Shown: positions 54,442 through 62,644 of the stretch, in pieces
Layout of the letters: every line of letters begins with the position of its first letter
Numbering within the stretch: the first letter of the stretch is position 1
Assembly: GCA_905250025.1 (NCBI GenBank)
Contig: CAJNOJ010000011.1
Coordinates: 439,287-503,286 of the forward strand
Origin: Adineta ricciae
Taxonomy: Eukaryota > Rotifera > Eurotatoria > Adinetida > Adinetidae
DNA: 64,000 nt
Direction: 5' to 3'
The notes under the pieces: generated by a model
Databases searched by the model: none
What the model saw: only the letters and a program-made list of their open reading frames with translations
What the model was told of the DNA's origin: nothing
Program-made: the position numbers and the translations under genes

Positions 54442-58816
<4,375 letters not shown>

Positions 58817-59458
58817 CTAGAAAATCCATGTTTAAAAATCGACCGTATGGGTATGAGAAAAAATGAAAATGTCTTGAATGCCCAAATATATTCGATGGCA
58901 AAAGCACCTACCTCGTACTAGTTAATATGGTAAAATGAAATGAAACAGCTATAAATGAGCATACGCAACAACAATGACAGACACACAAAAGGACAATTTC
59001 GTCATTGGCTGAAATACATATTAGTGTTCGTCCAATACGATGACACACTGCAAGCGAAGAAGTTTTAAGTTATTAGTATTATTGTTTAAGTATAAAATGA
59101 ATTGGGTTTTTTTATATCGTAATAAACAATTTTTCGATTATTATCGAAAAGATCATCAGCTGAGGACATCTGTCGCCAGTTGCTACGGATCGTGCATATA
59201 CCTACTATTACAATCCAGTGGCAATCTAGCTCGTATCGAAATCTCGGTGAGGCATAGACACTATTTTAAGTAACGTGAGTCATCTAATCATCGCATTTCG
59301 CTAGTCGTTTTTATAAGCGACGGAGAAATATTCGTTTGAATTGACTTTTGTTGTAGGACGAAAGGGTAAAGACAAATGGATATGATTTAAATGAGTTTAT
59401 TTCAAAGAAATAATGTCACAACAAATGTATTCTGTTAGGAACATCGGTATTGAAGTGA
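58817..59458. other. intergenic interval upstream of SPT16
   Basis: AT-rich; no gene recognised. It contains the SPT16 upstream region and the 3' flank of the secreted repeat gene. Confidence 0.4.
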
Positions 59459-61234
59459 TTAGTTAGCTGATGGTAAAACATTTTGAATACCATTAAGAAT
59501 ATTTTGAAGTGTTTCTTGAAGGACAGCTGGAATTTGATGAAGATCAGTGTTGAGAGCATTGACATTGTTCAATAAATTCAACAAGGAAAGAACTGTTGAA
59601 ATTGATGTACCTTGGGGTAAAAGATGTGAGATGGTTGAGAGTAAGTTAGCATTCTGACCAAGAGCGCCCAAAATGTTATTGCGGCTTGTTGCTAAAGAAA
59701 GATGTAGTATTTGACAAAAGAGTTCGACTAACTAAAGACAACAGTAATCAACATACGTTGAACATGTGGTGTGACGAGACCGATCAATTGATCGACAATG
59801 ATTTGTGTGGCTTGACCAGCTCCACCAACAAGGGTTGTTAAAGTTTGGTTGAGTAAAACTGGAATTTGGTGAATGTCATTGTTAAGTTGGTTGACGTTGT
59901 TCAACAAGCTGAGGATGGAAAGAATGCTGGAGATTGAAGTACCTTGTGGTAAAAGGTGACTAATGGTTGAGAGTAAACCGGCGTTTTGACCAAGGGCACC
60001 CAAAAGGTTGTTACGGCTGTTGGTAGCTACAAAAAAATCAATATTTTTTAAAATATTGTCTGAACTGTCAAGGGAAGAAATTTACCATGTGGTGTGACGA
60101 GACCAATCAATTGATCGACAATGATTTGTGTGGCTTGACCAGCTCCACCAACAAGGGTTGTTAAAGTTTGGTTGAGTAAAACTGGAATTTGGTGAATGTC
60201 GTTGTTGAGTTGGTTAACGTTGTTCAACAAGCTGAGGATGGAAAGAATACTGGAGATTGAAGTACCTTGTGGTAAAAGGTGACTAATGGTTGAGAGTAAA
60301 CCGGCATTTTGACCAAGGGCACCCAAGAGGTTGTTACGGCCTACAGCATAGATCATTTTCAATGAGAAGAAAGCGTTTTCTCTCACGAAATAACTTACTT
60401 TGGTGAGCTGTTCCAGAAACAGCACCAATTAATTGATCAACAACGATTTGACTAACTTGACCTGTTGAATTGAGGATGCTGGCAAGTGTTTGGTTGATCA
60501 AATGAGGAATTTGATGAATCTAAATGAACAGATTTCTTTCGATCAATGTAATAGAATCCGTGCATACATCATTTGATAATTGATGAACGTTGTTGAGTAA
60601 ATTTACGATTGATAAAACTGTTCCCAAATCAGTACCATGTGTAGCTGAGGTCAATGATTGTAAAAGGTTGCTACCAGAAAGAAGGGAGCCAAGTGAGCCC
60701 AATGGGTTGCTTCGGCTTGCAACACCTACTCATACAAACAGTGATTATCTGTCGCCTATGCATCTCGAAAGATATACCAGTGTTTTTGCAAGCTGAAAGA
60801 CTTGGACAACATCCACCAACTGGAACTGGAGCTGGTGTACCATCTGGACAGACTAAAAAGACCATTGTGCACATAGTGAAAGCGCAGTTTGAGATGGCTA
60901 TAACGAAACACAAACACATTTAATGCAAAGAATATTGAATCAAGCTTTGAATAACACACGTTTGATTGGTTTGATTGGTTTGATTGCATTATTGTTACTG
61001 TCTTTGCAAGCGCTTAATGATGGACAACATCCACCGGCTGGAACTGGGGCAGGTGTGCCATCTCGACAGACTTTAAGATCCATGGTGCAAAGAACATTAG
61101 CACAGTTTGGTTGAAATGCTTTAAGAAAGGAAAGAACGATGCTTTAAATCTATCTTACTCTAACTGAGTAACTTACCAATGGAAGTACCATATGCAACAC
61201 CAAGAGTAACAAGTAAACAGATGAGAGCTCTCAT
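59459..61234 (-). CDS. secreted repeat protein: two Cys-rich modules and four Leu-rich hydrophobic repeats
   Basis: Eight exons (61234-61177, 61118-60999, 60897-60778, 60725-60568, 60519-60399, 60340-60086, 60026-59757, 59691-59459) sum to 1,335 bases, or 444 aa. Exon 1 is a signal peptide (MRALICLLVTLGVAYGTSI). Exons 2 and 3 are both 120 bases and encode two copies of a module with pattern NCA..xCTM....VC.DGTPAPVP.GGCCPSLSAC. Exons 4+5, 6, 7 and 8 each encode a repeat of about 70-85 aa: LLGALGQNAGLLSTISHLLP, QGTSISSILSILSLLNNVNQ, LNNDIHQIPVLLNQTL, then QATQIIVDQLIGLVTPH. Repeats 2 and 3 are identical in protein over more than 80 residues. NQTL gives N-glycosylation sequons. I do not recognise the family. 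TTTGCAG lies 14 bases before the ATG. Confidence 0.85.
59757..60340 (-). repeat. tandem duplicated exons (repeat units 2 and 3)
   Basis: Exons 60340-60086 and 60026-59757 are near-identical over about 250 bases, with only a handful of mostly third-position differences. This points to recent duplication or gene conversion. They encode repeats 2 and 3 of the secreted protein. Confidence 0.9.
60778..61118 (-). repeat. tandem duplicated 120-base exons (Cys-rich modules)
   Basis: Exons 61118-60999 and 60897-60778 are the same length and phase and encode homologous 40-residue modules sharing DGTPAPVP and GGCCPSLSACK. They are more diverged from each other than the two helical repeat exons are. Confidence 0.9.
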
Positions 61235-61948: not shown

Positions 61949-62644
61949 ATGGCTGACCAATGGCCCGATGAGATTCCGCCAAACGCTCAAGTAAACGACG
62001 ATGAAGATGTTGCTGACGACTGGGAAACAGCATTAGACGAAAAAGTTTGTTCATTCGGAAATCAACTTCCGTATTTTCATTTGTTTATTCTTTAGCCTAA
62101 ACAATCTGATGTTGAAGAAAAACCAAAAACAACAACAGTAGCTAAATCAAGTAAAAAGAAATCCGAAGAGTCTCAAAAACCGAATAAACAAGCCGGTAGA
62201 AATACTCCACAGGAAGAATTAGATCAAAACAAGCAAAACGACGAAGATGAAAAATCAGAATCAGCTGATAAAGCTGGAATAGTTCGATCACTCAATGATA
62301 TAGACCTATATAAAAGAGAGGAGTTTCTTGATTACAGTCATCGTTTGTATACTCGTTTAAAACCCATATCTACTTCCGAATTCTATCCCGAATTCATCGA
62401 CCAATTTCTTCGTGGTATTACAGAACCGATGTCAATCGACGATGTCAAACGTTTAGCTGCGTCATTGCAAGCGATAACTATACGTAAACAAGGTGACGAA
62501 CGTGAAAAGAAATCAAAAGCCAAAGCAAAAAAACAAACGAAACCACAATTGAGAACTGGTCGTCAATCGGATTACGGAGCGTTCGGCAATGGTGATAACG
62601 ATTACGACCAAGATAATGACTACGATGATGAGGATTTTATGTAA
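61949..62644 (+). CDS. EIF3J: eukaryotic translation initiation factor 3 subunit J
   Basis: Two exons (61949-62044, 62096-62644) sum to 645 bases, or 214 aa. The acidic N-terminus MADQWPDEIPPN with DDWE matches the Trp/Asp N-terminal region of eIF3j that contacts the 40S decoding site. A charged Lys/Glu middle follows, then the helical core DLYKREEFLDYSHRLYTRLK and MSIDDVKRLAASLQAI, a Lys-rich stretch and the acidic end YDDEDFM; human eIF3j ends YEDFM. eIF3j controls mRNA entry to the 40S subunit. Confidence 0.9.

Follow-up and report, generated by a model that had tools for sequence, protein, structure and literature searches.

A gene on the minus strand of the window (the whole 64,000-nucleotide stretch of Adineta ricciae DNA analysed here) joins short Cys-rich modules to hydrophobic repeats behind a signal-peptide-like start, which raises the questions of whether the two kinds of module belong to one product, to which family that product belongs and what it might do. 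The gene itself is real: one minus-strand gene carries both module types (Table 1), in the order signal peptide, two Cys modules and four Leu/Asn/Ser/Gln-rich helical units. All of its introns are of the GT-AG kind and lie in phase 1, except for a single phase-0 intron inside the first helical unit. One relative of its product, P0102, carries the source name Secreted protein.

Table 1. Exons of the window gene, with positions counted from the first base of the window
Feature	Position	Strand	Remarks
Whole gene	59459..61234	minus	eight exons, seven introns
Exon 1, signal peptide (MRALICLLVTLGVAYGTSI)	61177..61234	minus	ends in phase 1; signal peptide judged from sequence
Exon 2, Cys module 1 and linker with IKPIKPIKP	60960..61118	minus	159 bases; donor GTGTGT; exact identity to P0002
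Exon 3, Cys module 2	60778..60897	minus	120 bases; phase 1-1
Exon 4, front part of first helical unit (F)	60568..60725	minus	phase-0 end at ..QLSND
Exon 5, rear part of first helical unit (F)	60399..60519	minus	starts IHQIP
Exon 6, middle helical unit M1	60086..60340	minus	
Exon 7, middle helical unit M2	59757..60026	minus	protein identical to M1 over 84 compared codons
Exon 8, terminal helical unit (T) and stop	59459..59691	minus	

A preliminary description of the locus had proposed a complete secreted protein of 444 aa, with its two Cys modules on same-phase exons of exactly 120 bases each. We reproduced this model, and the gene, its signal-peptide-like start, the module order and the shared phase all hold; the 120-base length holds for exon 3, whereas that of exon 2 needs revision. 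In the 444-aa model, exon 2 uses an earlier donor and ends at 60999. With the longer exon, the window gene corresponds letter for letter to P0002, a 457-aa A. ricciae database protein that is itself a gene prediction, and on this identity exon 2 most likely comprises 159 bases and the 457-aa form is the main product. The linker from Cys module to Cys module then has 19 residues, the same length as in P0005, a close, transcript-like relative (369 aa on a 1265-base contig); in the Adineta proteins P0001, P0004, P0007, P0102 and P0117 it measures 12 or 13 residues. The 444-aa model leaves 6 residues. Because short linkers do occur in the family (5-9 residues in 24 of 54 linkers, exactly 6 in four of them), the shorter splice form may be produced as well.

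Whether relatives combine the modules in the same way was addressed by a family search with the 444-aa protein, in which scoring was confined to the 7991 candidates with most words in common. It yielded at least 90 relatives. Of the 69 rows other than the 21 organism-named ones (see below), 67 sit on contigs no longer than 2015 bases, and in 44 of these 67 one open frame starts with Met and spans at least one Cys module together with two helical units. Since the window gene has seven introns, short contigs with an uninterrupted frame are most simply spliced transcripts, and both module types would most simply belong to one messenger. Separate genes for the two modules, an outcome considered in the preliminary description, are thus not borne out for the family. 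We likewise give next to no weight to the idea of a decaying or mis-joined gene, with the two module types on separate genes or with no expression at all: the shared frame in those 44 contigs, the silent nature of all seven changes between the M exons (see below) and the identical database protein P0002 speak against it, and what speaks for it is a homoeologous copy that has lost its helical part.

This copy came to light in the searched assembly (130 Mb, 1033 contigs), which contains at least one gene with helical units and, on contig 37, at least one additional locus with Cys modules. The latter lies in a homoeologous region whose order follows that of the window. DNA identity amounts to 65-69 percent across aligned stretches of 478, 777 and 5034 columns, and some shorter stretches are more alike. 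As in the window, an eIF3J-like frame, recognised by eye, adjoins the copy. The neighbours in the window itself are eIF3 subunit J at 61950-62644 on the plus strand (PF08597 match on 62096-62641) and the FACT subunit SPT16 at 57500-58900 on the minus strand (PF14826 match on two exon-sized frames). The contig 37 copy (L010 4740-5180) encodes a signal peptide and two Cys modules followed by a stop, and what is likely to be a relic of the terminal helical exon follows ~1.2 kb further on (L010 3505-3561; 19 residues, E 0.012). P0117, an A. ricciae database protein of 104 aa, corresponds to this copy with several residue differences. In A. vaga P0007, which we infer from sequence to be the counterpart of the contig 37 copy, the helical part is kept and the first Cys module is alike to that of the copy. 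Given the loss of the helical part from contig 37, Cys and helical parts can be lost apart; P0087 and P0115 are further Cys-only members of the family.

As to the distribution of the family, all 21 organism-named rows among the at least 90 relatives are bdelloids (Adineta, Rotaria, Didymodactylos). A profile of two helical units matched at least 36 proteins among the matches listed (about 8000 candidates scored), and a Cys profile matched 29 proteins, 13 of them at E below 1e-3; the organism-named proteins among those 36 or more and those 13 again come only from Adineta, Rotaria and Didymodactylos. By taxonomy, A. ricciae, Rotaria sordida and Didymodactylos carnosus are bdelloids, representing the orders Adinetida and Philodinida. 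Among the matches listed, the named relatives found, at E up to 1e-3, are bdelloid rotifers only. A scan of prokaryote genomes and viral contigs confirmed no family member. P0123 (an ENA contig) and P0124 (a MERC sequence) are more distant six-Cys relatives (E 8e-7 and 4.9e-5), which we do not take as an occurrence outside bdelloids. Some JGI relatives bear misleading source names (riboflavin transporter FmnP, endonuclease III-like) that are evidently automatic errors.

The Cys module is compact, with six Cys in 39 residues, and its spacing C-X4-C-X6-C-X12-CC-X5-C recurs in 127 of the 133 family modules caught by our search expression. In the window gene, the two Cys exons are ~78 percent alike over their first 112 bases. 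Family proteins, fragments included, have from 0 to 6 such modules as found. Repeated CTxDxKxCPDG-like stretches, which bear a striking resemblance to the beginning of the rotifer module and lack the CC pair, occur in P0126-P0131 and P0136 at E 0.019 or worse; P0127 is labelled Patescibacteria and P0136 Dojkabacteria, and two others of this set carry PF27023.

Three kinds of helical unit can be distinguished, namely first (F), middle (M) and terminal (T), arranged as F-M(n)-T. Their number is three in P0004, four in P0002 and P0007 and seven in P0001 (all Adineta proteins), and P0102 of A. steineri has one helical unit plus a terminal tail. The four helical repeats of the preliminary description are indeed present in the order given there. 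The first, however, is split over two exons by the phase-0 intron at SND/IHQIP, and the QIIVDQLIGLV-like helix said to end each repeat is found in three of the four, whereas the terminal unit lacks it and ends in QNILNGIQNVLPSAN. M units and Cys modules sit on symmetric phase 1-1 exons and can therefore be duplicated without a break in the frame. The most distant relative found among the matches listed, P0114 (on an 869 bp ENA contig), has a signal-peptide-like start and a single helical unit and is devoid of Cys modules. It scored E 0.012 in the two-unit profile search, the four sequences that it matches best in this genome are the window gene's own helical units (E 6e-5 to 0.011), and it could show the ancestral form.

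The composition of the helical region was determined for the 73 of the 90 relatives that have a recognisable F unit (23,074 residues). Leu (20.6 percent), Asn (11.0), Ser (10.5) and Gln (9.4) prevail, next to Gly (8.9) and Ala (6.2); Lys (0.5), Arg (1.0) and Phe (0.3) are rare, and Tyr and Trp are at about 0. Per protein, 72 of 73 have no Trp and 72 no Cys in this region, 30 have no Lys and 32 no aromatic residue. The helical part of the window protein has a GRAVY of +0.33, no Lys, no aromatics and 13 charged residues in 344. We regard this composition, low in charge and all but free of Cys, Trp and Tyr, as the strongest hint to a possible role. The scarcity of Lys and Tyr argues against Lys- or dityrosine-type cross-linking in the helical part. 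Every one of the 225 F and M units scored contains an N-x-T sequon, in which x can be Q, E or H, and Q-x-T takes its place in all 82 of the T units scored, where only units fitting the search expression were scored and the others left uncounted. The T unit, which keeps the T of the sequon without its N, may keep it for structure rather than for sugar.

How are the units maintained? Between the two M exons of the window gene, 7 of 255 aligned bases differ, all of them silent third-position transitions, giving a synonymous divergence of ~0.12. This bears out the preliminary description, which had noted identical protein over more than 80 residues with few silent differences. If all changes are transitions, seven silent changes out of seven would arise without selection with a chance of ~0.0009; the M units are under purifying selection. 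The M and T exons of the gene are ~71 percent alike. In a tree of units from 19 proteins, hand-chosen for spread and read by eye without support values, the F units form one clade and the T units another, while M units group by gene in 15 of 17 proteins (exceptions, P0003 and P0014). Scored by plain identity, the best M match lies within the gene, or ties with one elsewhere, in 22 of the 52 proteins that have at least two M units. Near-identical relatives depress this count; the other proteins compared also include fragments and badly cut units (P0035, P0041). We read this as middle units evolving in concert between fixed ends, an interpretation of the sequences for which simple counting gives weaker support than the tree. 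When the introns between repeats were compared, shuffles reached the observed score in 58, 3 and 103 of 300 cases. The pair with 3 of 300, the introns after M1 and after M2, appears somewhat alike, which fits a tandem duplication that carried an intron along. Conversion may account for the likeness of the M exons, or selection may have preserved it since an older duplication. With symmetric phase-1 exons able to duplicate and homogenised middle repeats, the secreted modular protein put forward in the preliminary description is supported.

The statement that no family with this combination is known proved too strong. PF27602 (PF27602.1), a newer Pfam accession, is attached as a precomputed label to 25 of the at least 90 relatives, P0002 included. 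Because six of the 25 show no Cys module, PF27602 marks the helical part. In a Pfam copy without PF27602, no family reached its cut-off on the window protein; NCBIfam gave nothing near cut-offs on P0002 and four relatives, and a PDB search with the window protein gave nothing convincing. The top search results of the bdelloid and rotifer protein literature contained no description of the gene or family, and no mention of I4U23_006792, I4U23_026460 or PF27602 was found in the literature searched.

Several described proteins nevertheless invite comparison. VWC (PF00093) and single-domain VWC proteins resemble the Cys module in being short, with a CC pair and with Pro and Gly between the Cys. VWC has ten Cys per domain and SVWC eight, whereas the rotifer module has six (133 of 133 caught modules). 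PF00093 matched 2 of 21 modules, hand-chosen from 112 distinct ones, weakly (best E 0.0098), and was absent from the matches of the whole window protein. This weak likeness, together with Cys-rich secreted modules that are gained and lost, would be in keeping with a secreted defence protein whose Cys modules bind microbes and whose greasy helices disrupt or trap them. We find such a function decidedly improbable for a protein with almost no positive charge in its helical units and strongly conserved F and T units, encoded in a genome where one helical-unit gene was found (a lower bound).

Spidroins and other silks are known for conserved ends and homogenised, Gly/Ala-rich internal repeats of variable number. 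The rotifer protein shares the conserved terminal units, the homogenised internal repeats and the variable repeat number, but lacks Gly/Ala repeats, and its caps are versions of the repeat itself; no spidroin model was among the Pfam matches of the window protein. A further likeness is to the Dictyostelium spore coat N-terminal family (PF04562), which scored 19.0 bits on P0117 (E 0.0024), short of the curated cut-off of 22.3, and 12.6 bits, also below cut-off, on the N-terminal part of the window protein; several unrelated families score similarly and are likewise sub-threshold. We know of no helical units like the rotifer ones in Dictyostelium spore coat proteins or in the avian eggshell-membrane protein CREMP. 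Both, like the rotifer protein, have repeated Cys modules; theirs belong to extracellular coats and start C-X4-C-X5-C according to the available part of PMC3068167. The spacing given there for CREMP, C-X4-C-X5-C-X8-C-X6, departs from the X6, X12 and CC-X5-C of the rotifer module.

AlphaFold modelled the Cys modules of the full chain with a pLDDT of about 73-93 and the helical part as nearly all helices with a pLDDT of about 34-68. A single helical unit predicted alone gave three helices (mean pLDDT 62), and a fold search against solved structures returned no significant match. The models give no picture of how the units pack. The predicted helices, along with the very high Leu content, the lack of Lys and aromatics and the GRAVY of the helical part of the window protein, would also suit a surface-active or lipid-binding secreted protein, whose units open at air-water or membrane interfaces, as do those of latherin and apolipoproteins, and wet or shield the drying body surface. 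This we judge unlikely, as the helical moments of the units are modest (0.18 to 0.30), Asn, Gln and Ser are many, and middle units that evolve in concert are rather a mark of structural polymers.

Bdelloids are known for desiccation tolerance, and LEA proteins are hydrophilic and charged. An anhydroprotectant that drying induces and that acts outside the cell, as a secreted equivalent of LEA or SAHS proteins, would accord with the presence of the family in both bdelloid orders seen. The window protein, hydrophobic and almost uncharged in its helical part, is unlike LEA proteins, and its Pfam matches, among which no family reached cut-off, included no LEA family. Genes of unknown function, some of them bdelloid-specific, figure in the responses of A. 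vaga (PMC10809525, available part), and the window gene could be one of them. The parts of PMC10809525, PMC11258130 and PMC12220480 available to us, which deal with bdelloid expression, contain no recognisable mention of such a gene and no link from it to drying; the genes of unknown function in PMC10809525 and PMC12220480 appear there under other numbers or none and could not be mapped to the window gene. On balance, protection against drying seems to us a quite unlikely function.

What, then, might the protein do? We propose an extracellular structural protein of bdelloid rotifers, N-glycosylated and able to self-associate, with its helices as the packing elements, and put the chance of this at a little short of even. 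Going by sequence features, it would probably go into the making of an external coat, mucus or glue. The six-Cys modules would each close three disulfides and form rigid heads for docking or cross-linking, and the nearly uncharged, aromatic-poor, Leu/Asn/Ser/Gln-rich units would be N-glycosylated helical blocks that pack against one another, both in the same chain and across chains. The F and T units would cap the start and the end, chain length would follow from how many M units there are, and the product would be an extracellular film, mucus, glue or egg coat by a use of repeated modules as in silks and eggshell-membrane proteins. A structural role is the most likely one because the signal peptide, the disulfide modules, the interchangeable exons and the homogenised middle units come together. 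We further count in its favour the module order, composition, sequons, unit number, tree, purifying selection, the confident prediction of the Cys modules and the sub-threshold spore-coat likeness. Against it, the low pLDDT of the predicted helical part weighs on the claim of self-association, and the lack of a significant fold match on the structural reading as such; the A. ricciae homoeolog persists as a Cys-only gene, so that the helical part is not always needed; and the spore-coat likeness is, after all, shared in strength with unrelated families. The preliminary description had guessed at a matrix, cement or stress role: matrix or cement would still be a guess from sequence, and nothing in the analysis ties the gene to stress. 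Its observation is sound once the splice site and the unit description are corrected.

More doubtful, in our estimate, is the wider claim that bdelloids possess a secreted polymer of their own, with disulfide heads, homogenised and glycosylated helical blocks, caps made from the same block and no relative found outside the family, which could be a main protein in their mucus, glue or egg coat, or in a film sealing the drying animal. The helical unit has no described relative that a profile or fold search could find. The gene, whose ends are fixed, whose symmetric exons can be exchanged and whose middle copies stay alike, is a clear case of how a repeat protein is kept up, in animals long thought asexual. 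Should it encode a coat, glue or drying-film protein, it would provide a direct handle on bdelloid surface biology.
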